A DNA stretch of 64,000 bases, from assembly GCF_026967985.1 (NCBI RefSeq), contig NZ_JAPVBJ010000001.1:186001-250000 (forward strand), read 5' to 3'. Positions 2,635-45,494 of this stretch are shown piece after piece. The stretch's first letter is position 1, and every line of letters starts with the position of its first letter. This DNA comes from Modestobacter sp. VKM Ac-2984 (GTDB taxonomy: Bacteria > Actinomycetota > Actinomycetes > Mycobacteriales > Geodermatophilaceae). The translations under genes were made by a program, and so were the position numbers. A model generated the notes under the pieces. It ran no database searches. It was not told the origin of the DNA and saw nothing but the letters and a program-made list of their open reading frames with translations.

Positions 2635-5600
2635 GAGCTGCCTCCATCACGGCACGGTCCACGTCGTAGCCGGCGGCCTCGGCGGCCCGCCGGGCCTCCA
2701 TGGCACGCCGGTAGTCACGCGGCATGATCACGCTGAATCGGCCCGCCCAGCGGCCCCAGTCGGCCAGCAGGCTGGTCGCGACCGCCGAGTCGGTCGCCGC
2801 GCAGTAGCGCTCGAGGACGTCACGCAGCCAGGCCGAGCCCTGCCCGTCCAGCGCCTCGACGTCCACCATCTCGGTGTTGACCCGGTGCCGGGCCAGGTCG
2901 AGCACGTACCCGATCCCCCCGGACATGCCGGCGGCGATGTTGCGCCCGGTCGGCCCGAGGATCACCGCGGTGCCGCCGGTCATGTACTCCAGCGCGTGGT
3001 CACCGACGCCCTCGACGACGGCCAGCGCCCCGGAGTTGCGGACGCAGAACCGCTCCCCCACCCGGCCGCGGAGGAAGACCTCGCCGGAGGTGGCGCCGTA
3101 GCCGATCACGTTGCCGGCGATGACGTTGTCCTCGGCGGGGAAGCTCGCCTCGGGTGCCGGGCGGACGATGATCCGGCCGCCGGACAGGCCCTTGCCGACG
3201 TAGTCGTTGGCGTCGCCGACCAGGGTCATGGTGATCCCGCGGGGCAGGAACGCCCCGAAGGACTGCCCTGCCGACCCGGTGAAGGTCAGGTCGATGGTGC
3301 CGTCGGGCAGACCCTCCCCACCGAAGCGGCGGGTGACCATCGAGCCCAGCATCGTGCCGACGGTGCGGTTGACGTTGCGGACGGGGAGCTCGAGGTGCAC
3401 CGGGCGGGCGTCGAGCAGGGCGCCCTCGCACAGCTGGATCAGCGTCTGGTCCAGGGCGACGTCCAGCCCGTGGTCCTGGTCGCGGACCTTGTGCCGCGGC
3501 GTGCCCTCGGGCAGCTCGGGCACGGCCAGGATCGGCCGCAGGTCCAGCCCGGAGGCCTTCCAGTGGTCGATCGCCGGTGCGACGTCCAGCAGCTCGGCGT
3601 GACCGACGGCCTCGTCGATGGAGCGGAAGCCCAGCTCGGCGAGGTACCCGCGCACCTGCTCGGCCAGGAACTCGAAGTAGGTCACCACGAACTCGGGCTT
3701 GCCGGTGAACCGCTTGCGCAGCTCCGGGTTCTGGGTGGCGATGCCGACCGGGCAGGTGTCCAGGTGGCAGACGCGCATCATCACGCAGCCCTCGACCACC
3801 AGCGGCGCGGTGGCGAAGCCGAACTCCTCGGCGCCCAGCAGCGCGGCGACGATGACGTCCCGGCCGGTCTTCATCTGGCCGTCGACCTGCACCACGATCC
3901 GGTCGCGCAGGCCGTTGGCCAGCAGCGTCTGCTGGGTCTCGGCCAGGCCGATCTCCCACGGGATGCCGGCGTGCTTGAGCGAGGTCAGCGGCGCCGCACC
4001 GGTCCCGCCGTCGAAGCCGGAGACCAGGACGACGTCGGCCTTGGCCTTGCTGACCCCGGCCGCCACGGTGCCGATCCCGGACTCCGCGACCAGCTTGACG
4101 TGCACCCGCGCCTCGTTGTTCGCGTTCTTGAGGTCGTGGATCAGCTGCTTGAGGTCCTCGATCGAGTAGATGTCGTGGTGCGGCGGCGGGCTGATCAGGC
4201 CGACCCCGGGCGTGGAGTGCCGGGTGCGGGCCACCCACGGGTAGACCTTGCTCCCCGGCAGCTGACCGCCCTCACCGGGCTTCGCGCCCTGGGCCATCTT
4301 GATCTGGATGTCGTCGGCGTTGACCAGGTACTCGCTGGTGACGCCGAACCGGCCGCTGGCGACCTGCTTGATCGAGCTGCGCCGCAGGTCGCCGTTGGGG
4401 TCGGCGGTGAACCGGTCGGGGTCCTCGCCGCCCTCGCCGGTGTTGGACTTGCCGCCCAGCCGGTTCATCGCGATCGCCAGCGTCTCGTGCGCCTCGGCGG
4501 AGATGGAGCCGTAGCTCATCGCGCCGGTCTGGAACCGCTTGACGATCTCGCTGACCGACTCGACCTCCTCCAGCGGGACGGCGGGCCGGGCCCCGGTCCT
4601 GAGGGTGAACAGGCCGCGCAGCGTCGCCGCCTGGGCCGAGAGACCGTCGACGGTGTCGGTGTAGCGCTGGAAGACGTCGTACTGCCGGGACCGGGTGGCG
4701 TGCTGGAGCAGGAACACCGTCTCGGGGTTGAACAGGTGCACCTCGCCCTCGCGGCGCCACTGGTACTCCCCGCCGGTCTCCAGCCGCCGGTGCGCCGTCT
4801 CGGTCGGGTTGCTCGGGTAGGCGCGGCGGTGCCGCATCACGACCTCTTCGGCGAGCACGTCGAGCCCGACGCCGTCGAGGGTGGCCGCCGTCCCGGTGAA
4901 GTATTCGTCGACGACGGCCTTGGACAGCCCGACCGTCTCGAAGATCTGCGCCATCGTGTAGGAGCCGACGGTGCTGATGCCCATCTTGCTCATCACCTTC
5001 AGCACGCCCTTGCCCATGGCCTTGACCACGTTGCGGACGGCCTGGGCCGGCTGGACGCCGGTGAGCGTGCCGGTGCGGATGAGGTCCTCGACGCTCTCGA
5101 ACGCCAGGTAGGGGTTCACCGCGGCCGCGCCGTACCCCAGCAGCAGGGCGACGTGGTGCACCTCGCGGCAGTCGCCGGACTCCACGACCAGGCCGACCTG
5201 CATCCGGGTGCGCTCGCGCACCAGATGGTGGTGGACAGCGGCGGTCATCAGCAGCGACGGGATGGGGGCGCGCTTCTCGTCGCAGTCCCGGTCGGACAGC
5301 ACGATGACCCGGGCGCCGGCCGCGATCGCCTTGCTGACCTTGGTGCGCAGGTCCTGGACCGCCTGGGCCAGGGCCTCGCCACCGCCGGCGACGTCGAAGT
5401 GGCCGGTGATCCGCACGGCGGCGAAGCCGGGCAGGTCGCCGTCGTCGTCGATGTGCAAGATCTTGGCCAGCTCGTCGTTGTCGATGACCGGGTAGGGCAG
5501 GAACAGCTGCCGGCAGGAGGCCGGGGTGGCGTCGAGCAGGTTCTGCTCGGGGCCGAAGGTGCGCCCGAGGCTGGTGACCAGCTCCTCGCGGATGGCGTCC

Positions 5601-38921: not shown

Positions 38922-40406
38922 TTGACCACGGATGGTTCCTCGAACCCCGACGTAGTCCTCGTCGGCGGCGGCATCATGAGCGCGACGCTCTCCGCGCTCC
39001 TGGGCGTCGTGGCGCCGGACTGGACCGTCGCGGTCTTCGAGTCCGCCGACCAGGTCGCCGGTGAGAGCTCCGACGCGTGGAACAACGCGGGCACCGGCCA
39101 CTCGGCCCTGTGCGAGCTGAACTACACCCCCGCGGCACCCGACGGCCACGTCGACACGTCCAAGGCCGTCGGCATCAACGAGCAGTTCCAGGTGTCCCGG
39201 CAGTTCTGGTCGCACCTGGTGCGCTCCGGGCTGACCGACTCCCCCAAGCGGTTCATCACCTCCGTGCCGCACGTGAGCTTCGTGACCGGCGAGGCCGGGC
39301 GCCGGTACATGCGCACCCGGTACGACGCGCTGGCCGCCGAACCGCTGTTCGCGGAGATGGAGTACACCGACGACCGCGACGTCCTCGCCTCGTGGGTGCC
39401 GCTGATGATGGCCGGCCGCCCGGCGGACGAGGTCGCCGCCGCGACCCGGTCGCTGGCCGGCACCGACGTCAACTTCGGCGCGCTGACCCGGCTGCTGCTG
39501 GACGCCGCGGTCGGCCGGGGCGTCGAGCTGCACACCTCCACCCGGGTCCGCAAGGTCCGGCGGGAGTCCGACGGGCGCTGGGCGGTCACCGTCCGCTCCG
39601 GCTCCGGCCGCAGCCGCACCGTGCGCACCCGCTTCCTCTTCGTCGGGGCCGGCGGCGGCGCGCTCCCGCTGCTGCAGGGCTCCGGCATCCCGGAGATCCG
39701 CGGCTTCGGCGGGTTTCCGGTCAGCGGCCAGTTCCTCCGCACCCGATCCCCCGAGTTGGTCGGCCAGCACCAGGCCAAGGTCTACGGCCAGGCGAAGGTC
39801 GGCGCGCCGCCGATGTCCGTGCCGCACCTGGACCTCCGGCTGATCGACGGCGAGCAGGCCCTGCTGTTCGGGCCCTACGCCGGCTTCTCCCCCAAGTTCC
39901 TCAAGGCCGGGTCGATGTGGGACCTGCCGAAGTCGGTGCGCAGCGGCAACCTGGGCTCGATGCTCGGCGCCGGGATCGCCAACATCCCGCTGACGAGGTA
40001 CCTGATCGGCCAGGTCCTGCAGTCGACCAGCGCCCGGTTCCGAGCGCTCGAGGAGTTCGTCCCCACCGCCGAGCAGGACGACTGGGAGCTGATCACCGCC
40101 GGCCAGCGGGTGCAGGTCATCAAGCAGGACGCGACGACCGGCCGCGGCGTGCTGCAGTTCGGCACCGAGCTGATCGTGGGGGCCGAGGGCTCGATCGCCG
40201 GCCTGCTGGGCGCGTCCCCGGGGGCCTCCACCGCCACCTCGGCGATGCTCACGCTGCTGGAGCGCTGCTTCCCGGAGCGGATGGACACCTGGCGTCCGCT
40301 GCTGCAGGAGGCCATCCCCTCCTACGGCCACAAGCTGTCCGAGGAGCCGGCGCTGATGGCCGAGGTCCGCGCCGACACGACGAAGACGCTCGAACTCCAG
40401 GGCTGA
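38922..40406 (+). CDS. mqo: Malate:quinone oxidoreductase
   Basis: Membrane-associated FAD enzyme of the citric acid cycle that oxidises malate to oxaloacetate and reduces quinone. 494 residues from the TTG at 38922, the usual family length; this start has GGAGG six bases upstream. The FAD motif VLVGGGIMSATL is at residues 12-23, then the family signature ESSDAWNNAGTGHSALCELNYTP split across residues about 47-69, and ALEEFVPTAEQDDWELITAGQRVQVI further on. The longer frame from 38814 adds 36 residues without similarity. Its 3' end leads into a set of GGA-loop hairpins. Confidence 0.94.
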   Translation: MTTDGSSNPDVVLVGGGIMSATLSALLGVVAPDWTVAVFESADQVAGESSDAWNNAGTGHSALCELNYTPAAPDGHVDTSKAVGINEQFQVSRQFWSHLVRSGLTDSPKRFITSVPHVSFVTGEAGRRYMRTRYDALAAEPLFAEMEYTDDRDVLASWVPLMMAGRPADEVAAATRSLAGTDVNFGALTRLLLDAAVGRGVELHTSTRVRKVRRESDGRWAVTVRSGSGRSRTVRTRFLFVGAGGGALPLLQGSGIPEIRGFGGFPVSGQFLRTRSPELVGQHQAKVYGQAKVGAPPMSVPHLDLRLIDGEQALLFGPYAGFSPKFLKAGSMWDLPKSVRSGNLGSMLGAGIANIPLTRYLIGQVLQSTSARFRALEEFVPTAEQDDWELITAGQRVQVIKQDATTGRGVLQFGTELIVGAEGSIAGLLGASPGASTATSAMLTLLERCFPERMDTWRPLLQEAIPSYGHKLSEEPALMAEVRADTTKTLELQG

Positions 40407-40596
40407 GCGCCCCGATCGCGGGGGCCGGAGGCCCCCCGATCGGGGCGCTCGAACGCACGCCGACGCGGGCTGGCCGCGGTCCGGAGGACCGCTGAGCTGG
40501 GCCGTCGCGGGGCCGGAGGCTCCCGACGGCACGGCTCCAAGCGGCTCAACGTGCCCGGGGCACGGCTCCTGGCCGCGGTGCGGCCCGGAGGGTCGC
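40405..40596 (+). terminator. Four hairpins with identical GGA loops after mqo
   Basis: Hairpin 1, 40405-40450: arms of 14 and 7 pairs with one bulged base. Hairpin 2, 40476-40492: GCGGTCC, loop GGA, GGACCGC. Hairpin 3, 40501-40530: arms of 7 and 6 pairs, one G-U. Hairpin 4, 40580-40596: GCGGCCC, loop GGA, GGGTCGC, one G-U. Every tip reads CC-GGA-GG. The G-U pairs favour folding of the + strand RNA. The set fills the gap to the convergent antiporter gene and can serve as a terminator. Confidence 0.75.
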
Positions 40597-40603
40597 GACG
40601 TGC

Positions 40604-42115
40604 TCAGTCACTCTCGCTGGGCTGGCCGCTCTCCCCGCGCCAGGTGGCGAGCCGGCCGGCCCGGCTGACCGCGCGCAGCCGCCGCTCGGCCTCCTGACGG
40701 GACCCGCGCGCGGACACCAGCAGCGCCTGGTCGCCGTGCATCAGCCGGGTGGACCGGTCGGGGACGAACGGCTTGCCGTCCCGGACGACGAGGACGACCG
40801 CGGCGTCCTCGGGCAGCCGGAGCTCGGGCAGGTAGACGCCGTGCAGCCGGGACGTCTCCGGCACCCGGAGCTGCATCAGCTCCGCGCCGAGCTCGTCCAG
40901 CGGGGCGGACTCGACGTCGATGTCCTGCGGGGTGACCGGGGTGGCCAGCCGGAGCAGCCGGGCGACGGCCGGCAGTGACCAGCCTTGCACCACGGTGAAG
41001 ACGACGACGAGCACGAACACCGTGTCGAACACCCGGGTCGCACCGGGCACCTGGGCGGCGATCGGGAACGTCGCGAGCACGATGGGGACGGCGCCGCGCA
41101 GCCCGGCCCAGGAGATGAACAGCTGCTGGGCGATCGGGATGCGGAACCAAACGACGCTCAGCAGCACCGACAGCGGGCGGGCGACCAGCAGCAGCGCGCC
41201 GCCCACGAGCAGCGCCGGCAGCAGGGCGTCGGGCAGCCGGGCCGGGGAGACCAGCAGCCCCAGCAGCACGAACAGGCCGATCTGGGCGAGGCTGGCCAGC
41301 CCCTCCGCGAAGCCGATGGTGCCGGCCCGGTGCGGGAGCGCGGCGTTGCCGAGCACCAGGCCGCACAGGTAGACGGCGACGAAGCCGGAGGTGTGCACCA
41401 GGTCGGCGGAGGCGAAGGCCAGCACGCACAGGGCCACGGTGGCCAGCGGGTAGAAGCCGACCAGCGGCAGGGCGGCGCGCCGGAGCAGCCAGGCCCCGCC
41501 GAAGCCGATCCCGACGCCGATCGCCGTCCCGCCGGCCAGCTCGCCGAGCACCTCGGCCAGGACGAGGTACCAGACCGAGGGGGCCCCGCCGGTGAGCTGC
41601 TCGCTGAGCACCAGGACGAGCAGGATGACCGGGGCGTCGTTCAGCCCGGACTCCAGCTCCAGCGCGGCGACCATCCGCCGGGGCAGCGGGATCCGGCGCA
41701 GGGTGGAGAAGACGGCGGCCGCATCGGTGGAGGTGACCACCGCACCCACCAGCAGGGCGAACAGCCAGTCGAAGTCCAGCAGCCAGACGGCGATCGAGGA
41801 GACGACGGCGATGCTGACCACCACGCCGACGGTGGCCAGTGCGATGCCCGGGCCCACCGCCCGGCGGACGTCGGACCAGCGGGTGGTCAGGCCACCCTCG
41901 GCCAGGATCACCACGAGGGCGGCCACGCCGAGGGTCTGGGTGAGCCCGACGTCCTCGAAGTCGACGCCGAGGCCGCTCTCCCCCAGCGCCACCCCGAACG
42001 CCAGGTAGAGCAGCAGCGACGGGAGCCCGATCCGGTCGGCCAGCCGCAGCGCGACCGCGGCGAGGAGGACGACGAGGGCGCCGACGGCCAGCGCGATGGT
42101 GACCGTCGTGTTCAT
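40604..42115 (-). CDS. Potassium/proton antiporter (NhaP2/CvrA type)
   Basis: 503 residues. A cation:proton antiporter-1 domain with about 12 membrane helices (about 4-385); the STDAAAVFSTLR and LELESGLNDAPVIL segments hold the conserved acidic pair of this family. A TrkA-C-type cytosolic domain follows (about 415-485, ending in LMHGDQALLVSARG), as in K+/H+ antiporters with nucleotide or ion gating. ATG at 42115 is chosen; the frame is open much further upstream, through sequence that overlaps the ileS start region. Probable role: potassium and pH homeostasis. Confidence 0.88.
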   Translation of the reverse strand: MNTTVTIALAVGALVVLLAAVALRLADRIGLPSLLLYLAFGVALGESGLGVDFEDVGLTQTLGVAALVVILAEGGLTTRWSDVRRAVGPGIALATVGVVVSIAVVSSIAVWLLDFDWLFALLVGAVVTSTDAAAVFSTLRRIPLPRRMVAALELESGLNDAPVILLVLVLSEQLTGGAPSVWYLVLAEVLGELAGGTAIGVGIGFGGAWLLRRAALPLVGFYPLATVALCVLAFASADLVHTSGFVAVYLCGLVLGNAALPHRAGTIGFAEGLASLAQIGLFVLLGLLVSPARLPDALLPALLVGGALLLVARPLSVLLSVVWFRIPIAQQLFISWAGLRGAVPIVLATFPIAAQVPGATRVFDTVFVLVVVFTVVQGWSLPAVARLLRLATPVTPQDIDVESAPLDELGAELMQLRVPETSRLHGVYLPELRLPEDAAVVLVVRDGKPFVPDRSTRLMHGDQALLVSARGSRQEAERRLRAVSRAGRLATWRGESGQPSESD

Positions 42116-45372: not shown

Positions 45373-45406
45373 GGACGGGCCCCCGGTCAGCACCGGGGGC
45401 CCGTCC
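45373..45406 (+). terminator. Terminator hairpin after ileS
   Basis: Perfect 15-base arms (45373-45387 and 45392-45406) with loop CAGC, four bases after the ileS stop codon. Confidence 0.8.
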
Positions 45407-45435
45407 CGTTCCCTGCGACCCACCGCGAGCCACCG

Positions 45436-45480
45436 CAGCACAGAGCCCCGCCGGACCAGGTCCGGCGGGGCTCTGTGCTG
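45436..45480. terminator. Bidirectional terminator between ileS and divIVA
   Basis: A perfect palindrome with 22-base arms (45436-45457 and 45459-45480) around a single base. It lies 14 bases from the divIVA stop and behind the ileS terminator, so it probably serves the minus-strand cell division transcript and backs up ileS termination. Confidence 0.8.
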
Positions 45481-45494
45481 CTGTGCGTGGTGTG

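Follow-up and report, generated by a model that had tools for sequence, protein, structure and literature searches.

A hairpin array behind mqo is a tandem pair of a dispersed and probably mobile palindromic repeat

Palindromic repeats are well studied in proteobacteria, but it is mostly in the GTAG/RAYT class that the mover has been identified. MITEs and ERIC-like elements are ∼130 bp long, intergenic and non-autonomous, and have polymorphic insertions. REPs usually exceed 100 copies per genome (PMC2817692). Palindromic repeats tagged with CGTC, which form stems of 8–9 bp with loops of 4–5 nt, lack a dedicated transposase (PMC3733652).

Here we describe a repeat found behind mqo in Modestobacter sp. 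VKM Ac-2984, which is best read as a REP-like, non-autonomous mobile hairpin element that works like the REP/BIME or MITE repeats. Similar to REP/BIME elements with a RAYT (GTAG class), it consists of dispersed, mostly extragenic palindromes, single or arrayed, with stems kept by compensatory change; however, its unit of ∼115–130 bp combines two or three hairpins with a conserved linker. It resembles MITEs and ERIC-like elements in size, intergenic location, polymorphic insertions and lack of autonomy, but its junction at birA (one site) has neither long terminal inverted repeats nor a clear target duplication, and its conserved parts are the inner hairpins and the linker. Like the CGTC repeats, it is palindromic, and the search for Y1_Tnp found no dedicated transposase for it; unlike them, it has a hairpin B with a long variable stem, GNA/GNNA loops and a composite unit. 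Our searches of the open literature found no paper on this repeat, and one could exist elsewhere.

Hairpin array between mqo and the antiporter gene

The window analyzed here is the whole stretch of 64,000 nucleotides in which the array lies, and coordinates refer to it unless noted. Four hairpins (h1–h4) tipped CC-GGA-GG occupy 40405–40597, as a preliminary description made from the sequence had reported. The CCGGAGG tips start at 40425, 40481, 40513 and 40585 on the + strand and have 7, 7, 6 and 8 uninterrupted stem pairs, respectively. When at least five pairs were required, the rest of the 64-kb window held two more tips on the + strand (five pairs each) and none on the − strand. Dinucleotide shuffles of 40405–40604 (n = 5000) contained one tip in 41 cases and two or more in none, and we therefore reject a chance origin of the array. 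Additionally, the 241-nt array stretch has a folding z of −5.67.

The tips of h1 and h3 form a 16-nt repeat with 94% identity. These two hairpins represent one type (B) and h2 and h4 the other (A); thus, what looked like four unrelated hairpins is a tandem pair of units, and the earlier statement that the stems are unrelated does not hold for h1 and h3. Hairpins h1 and h2 make up a degenerate unit (unit 2), and h3 and h4 a full one (unit 1). The features of the locus are as follows.

38922–40406, + strand: mqo, malate:quinone oxidoreductase (open reading frame; start codon chosen by us)
40405–40450, + strand: h1, hairpin B of the degenerate unit 2, GGA loop, stem 40405–40426/40430–40450 (inverted repeat)
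40451–40475, + strand: degenerate linker of unit 2, retaining CTGGCCGCGGT, which continues into h2 (sequence, direct repeat)
40476–40492, + strand: h2, hairpin A of unit 2, GCGGTCC-GGA-GGACCGC (tip and stem scan)
40493–40604, + strand: unit 1, full match to the repeat model (100.3 bits, E 5.7e-16, model positions 1–114)
40496–40535, + strand: h3, hairpin B of unit 1, outer stem variable, tip GGGGCC-GGA-GGCTCC with G-U at the fourth pair (model match, fold, covariation)
40542–40546, + strand: 5' arm of linker helix 2, CGGCT (RNAalifold, covariation analysis)
40551–40563, + strand: fifth hairpin, GTGCC-CGG-GGCAC, outside the shared structure of the unit (sequence, fold)
40571–40575, + strand: 3' arm of linker helix 2, GGCCG, within the conserved box CGGCTCCTGGCCGCGGTG (alignment, RNAalifold)
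40579–40597, + strand: h4, hairpin A of unit 1, TGCGGCCC-GGA-GGGTCGCG (covariation, tip scan)
40604–42115, − strand: potassium/proton antiporter gene, convergent with mqo (open reading frame; start codon chosen by us)

Hairpin h1 begins within the mqo stop codon (40404–40406), and h4 lies 6 nt away from the K+/H+ antiporter stop codon on the − strand. Unit 2 is matched by the covariance model at C1:226404–226500, corresponding to window positions 40404–40500, with 44 bits (E 2.4e-4). The preliminary description also noted G-U pairs on the + strand in two stems, which we find once each in h3 and h4, and the fifth hairpin with its CGG loop at 40551–40563, which we recover as well. In the minimum free energy structure of this single sequence, h1, h3 and the fifth hairpin are the only local hairpins; the arms of h2 pair with the linker (40541–40576) and those of h4 with 40460–40473. 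Support for h4 as a predicted local hairpin comes from covariation across copies. No known Rfam 15 family was matched: a search of window positions 39000–42000 and of eight loci with copies gave best scores far below the gathering scores. Elsewhere in the window, 45373–45406 and 45435–45481 are long perfect hairpins whose loops read CAGC and CAG instead of GGA.

Dispersal, covariation and loops of the repeat

BLAST of the array against its own genome returned 15 matches. Besides the array and its first hairpin on the opposite strand, these comprise 13 sequences with 70–93% identity over 27 to 159 bases, the shortest of which may be chance. One of the 13 (L096) falls in coding-like sequence. 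The covariance model gave 17 matches in the same genome at E ≤ 1, 11 of them below 1e-8. The array behind mqo is thus two tandem copies of a dispersed repeat with a unit of ∼115–130 bp. At E ≤ 0.01, and with at most 63 candidates scored per genome under stricter filters, the model matched 32 of 35 genomes (own genome counted) in the family to which the window belongs, presumed from named Modestobacter loci to be Geodermatophilaceae, and none of 24 genomes of the order outside the family. A deeper search of 12 family genomes, with at most 150 candidates scored in each, found from 1 (G014) to 92 (G033) matches per genome at E ≤ 0.001, compared with the usual >100 for REPs (PMC2817692). Phage and plasmid collections had no match to one copy (L108) used as query. 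A single exact-pattern match in a viral contig falls within a long reading frame, and the model gives it 14.5 bits; we took it as chance and, from this one query copy, dismissed phage and plasmid carriage.

In each unit, a conserved linker containing a long-range helix joins hairpin B to the hairpin A that follows. Read in array orientation, hairpin B has a tip like GGGGCCC-GGA-GGGTCCC on a variable outer stem, the linker reads like AAGCGGCTCAgcgcaaCCGGGGCACGGCTCCTGGCCGCGGTG, and hairpin A carries a CC-GGA-GG tip on a variable stem. The long-range linker helix, CGGCT/GGCCG, was added by RNAalifold. On the strand complementary to the array, inspection by eye shows a recurrent CACATSG-like box before hairpin A and, often, a third hairpin and GGTCCGTACYCGT beyond hairpin B.

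We analyzed covariation in 91 units, a set biased toward high-scoring copies; 40 stretches were hand-picked from the top of the 59-genome match listing. Standard pairs fill 93.8% of the stem cells of these units, compared with 75.9% when shuffled, and both sides have changed in 25 of 31 stem pairs. The covariation score is 0.485, against 0.167 for shuffled and at most 0.101 for slid alignments. Helix 1, in hairpin B, shows changes on both sides in 18/18 pairs. Linker helix 2 is paired in 96.9% of cells with a two-sided change in one of its five pairs, and is less supported because it varies little.

The repeat also favors one strand. Across 178 hairpins, scored without preference for either strand, G-T pairs on the array strand number 123, against 17 A-C cells (equivalent to G-T on the other strand), a preference partly favored by the model, which rewards G-U and by which the units were picked. 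The 11 seeds found by BLAST have 15 G-T against 4 A-C. With RNA parameters, folding favors the array strand in 78 of 91 units, and with DNA parameters in 77. The + strand had already been proposed as the folding strand at mqo, and the copies bear this out.

Among the 182 tips of these units, 142 have GGA, 9 GAA, 8 GCA, 4 GTCA, 3 GGCA and 3 GCCA loops; the other 13 depart from this pattern, some of them perhaps through failed hairpin detection. The rule is therefore a G..A loop (GNA/GNNA), not strictly GGA: 169/182 tips have such a loop of three or four bases, all 169 closed by C-G. Triloops of the type C-GNA-G and tetraloops of the type C-GNNA-G are unusually stable in DNA, and such extra-stable hairpin loops are reportedly the subject of work by Yoshizawa and Hirao and by Moody and Bevilacqua. 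The 169 tips share this loop type, which is a structural motif rather than an element family. None of GTCA, GGCA and GCCA is of the GNRA type, which favors folding as DNA over folding as RNA. However, on the other strand the triloops read UNC before G and resemble the UNCG loops of RNA, and so the loop type does not settle the choice between DNA and RNA.

Polymorphic sites behind gene ends

The 91 units fall into 77 clusters: 66 contain one unit, 8 contain two and 3 contain three, and one cluster is of mixed strand. Flanking genes were called by a GC3 heuristic rather than a gene caller, and by this measure 37 of the 77 clusters lie between convergent gene ends. Of the 78 end units, 62 have the stop codon of an opposite-strand open reading frame no more than 11 nt from hairpin A, sometimes inside the stem; the simple heuristic found no stop in 11 of the 78, and in 5 of the other 67 the stop is 39–96 nt away. 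In the window's own genome, the neighbors on the hairpin A side include prs, hemQ, purA, the antiporter gene, an oligopeptide ABC ATPase gene, sua5/tsaC, birA and a response regulator gene. The preliminary description took the array for the 3' UTR of mqo or a separate small RNA, a reading that fails for a repeat dispersed behind many unrelated genes in either orientation. The element is present in many of the fetched species at the prs, hemQ-msrB, purA and asd sites, where asd and msrB are presumed identities taken from their C-termini. Occupancy of the same sites in many species also fits old functional elements.

Presence, orientation and number of units differ between species at these sites, and the element can be cleanly absent. 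At the mqo site, L051 (84% Mqo identity) has all four tips with nearly unchanged spacing and altered stems, L002 and L008 have three, L003 has one, and L004 and L005 have none. Conservation of the GGA loops in relatives, suggested earlier as a check, is thus largely seen in some close relatives. In L002, h2 has a GTA loop and a compensated stem. L006 carries two reversed CCTCCGG tips with hairpin-A flanks.

Several loci behind mqo and prs have other sequences. In L003 (Modestobacter VKM Ac-2985), a different palindromic stretch, GGGGTTGAGCCGCGTC..GACGCGGCTCAACCCC, lies at ∼4482–4720, at the equivalent intergenic site behind mqo. Tandem repeats like GCCCCGGGGCAACTCCGCACTTCC follow mqo in L037 (Trujillonella), and behind prs L222 has some twelve short direct repeats resembling GGGAGCCCCGTCACC at the position of the hairpin unit in relatives. 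Two records named Bacillus sp. AZ43 (L012) and Streptomyces sp. NP160 (L043), names that may be wrong, encode Mqo proteins 76% and 71% identical to that of the window.

Behind prs, a unit is present at E < 1e-5 in 17 of 30 loci; 15 of these share one orientation, and L212 and L225 have the opposite one. Tandem arrays occur in L211 (∼93 nt) and L221 (∼113 nt), and several loci are empty. At sua5, 10 of 21 loci have a unit at the same threshold. In three of these the unit faces the usual way next to the sua5 stop, accompanied in each case by a weaker, reversed second copy, and seven have reversed units only. Adjacency to a stop is ruled out as a universal rule by the reversed unit at several sua5 loci.

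The model matched 6 of 20 birA loci. Compared with G008, G000 has a 129-bp insertion between CCGAGC and CGGTGACG that is absent from G008; it adds three residues to BirA, whose new stop codon, a TGA, lies in the hairpin A loop. G001 resembles G000 at this site. The insertion ends in ACAT..GTGGC and, at this one site, has at most a 2-bp target repeat (possibly GC) and no long terminal repeat.

Mobility and competing explanations

Repeated GGA-loop hairpins recall the RNAs of the CsrB/RsmZ type that titrate CsrA/RsmA, which likewise carry several hairpins with GGA in the loop; the preliminary description raised this likeness and expected CsrA to be absent. The genome does encode CsrA (E 5.1e-24; gene at L001:1501–1749, with neighbors that look like the flagellar hook-associated flgK/flgL), and the Pfam FliW model found nothing in it. 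This, the four GGA loops in one 200-nt stretch, and the concurrent lack of CsrA in the three family genomes without the repeat (G027, G029 and G031) would suit a CsrA sponge. However, those three belong to other genera (g6, g8 and g10), so the link is confounded with descent. CsrA occurs in 30 of the 35 family genomes, and the two can occur apart: G014 (99% complete) has CsrA and one weak copy of the repeat, no CsrA was found in G015 and G019 (72 and 70% complete) with their 43 and 33 repeat matches, and outside the family CsrA is present in 7 of 24 genomes and the repeat in none. According to PMC7652899, CsrA sites are ANGGAN hexaloops and SELEX ligands mostly have four or fewer contiguous pairs, whereas the repeat has triloops on long stems. 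An A stands two bases before GGA in 3 of 142 GGA tips (5 of 184 in a looser count that includes shifted registers), loops with another middle base or with four bases exist, and copies are scattered genome-wide behind unrelated genes in both orientations. We therefore reject a CsrA sponge as the main reading and regard it as highly improbable. Another binder or a structural role, also mentioned in the preliminary description, did have to be weighed.

A cis-acting 3'-end element, either a (bidirectional) hairpin-cluster terminator or an mRNA stabilizer under selection with mobility only historic, is a more serious contender that we nevertheless consider unlikely. It draws on the proximity of stops to the end units, the clusters between convergent gene ends as called by the heuristic, and the recurrence of orthologous sites across species. 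Hairpin clusters close to stop codons were inferred to be intrinsic terminators in 13 bacterial genomes (PMC8355165). Against it, none of the 91 units has a T-rich tail (5 T in 8 bases) behind hairpin A on the array strand or hairpin B on the other, and a simple terminator scan of 40000–41000 gave no terminator-like site. Relative to the gene whose stop adjoins hairpin A, the strand with the G-U pairs is the antisense one, the conserved linker and loop rule exceed what a terminator needs, and orientation varies between species at prs and sua5. The placement between convergent ends (37/77 clusters) and the strongly conserved linker box would also be expected of a site between gene ends bound by a nucleoid or topology protein, for which the association of BIMEs with gyrase is a model. 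Such a site is improbable, as the bias of G-T pairs toward one strand and the loop rule suggest that the DNA folds as a single strand and not as a duplex.

We consider it probable that the repeat is a non-autonomous mobile palindromic repeat of its family, present in two tandem copies behind mqo. Elements of the RAYT/REP (GTAG) class carry GTAG or GTRG at one end and flank a RAYT gene of their genome (PMC3733652 and PMC2817692). The repeat differs in both respects: GTAG or CTAC lies close to the A end of 8 units and to the B end of 4 among the 91, and Y1_Tnp (PF01797), the Y1/RAYT transposase family searched, was found in 0/35 family genomes. The same model had hits in 3 of 24 genomes outside the family, and the positive control was found in 5 of 14 genomes. 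GTGG is present in 44 and CCAC in 36 of 91 units, counted anywhere in the unit and its 25-nt flanks rather than at the ends. As far as Pfam sees, the mover is thus not of the RAYT type. The lack of a Y1_Tnp mover in the 35 family genomes counts against mobility, as do the missing long terminal repeat and the target repeat of at most 2 bp at birA, the sole clean junction, and the occupancy of several sites in many species.

In the proposed mechanism, a putative enzyme would copy the element in trans, recognizing the hairpins of one strand, most likely as folded single-stranded DNA. Candidate recognition marks are the C-GNA-G and C-GNNA-G loops and the G-T pairs. The element would be tolerated or favored just 3' of stop codons, and tandem growth of copies may yield arrays like that behind mqo. 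Presumably the repeat is transcribed, and its hairpins could act as a terminator or 3'-end stabilizer for one or both flanking genes. A bolder version is doubtful as a whole: a DNA element whose C-GNA-G hairpins are recognized on one strand, which is copied by machinery other than Y1/RAYT, prefers the bases behind stops and can swap a gene's stop for that of its own hairpin.

Repeated GGA-loop hairpins alone are not evidence of CsrA control. Spread across an actinobacterial family, the repeat shows strong covariation, polymorphic sites and stop-codon donation, and the Pfam search found no RAYT in the family; it makes a clear case for seeking another mover and for considering DNA hairpin loops as its recognition marks.
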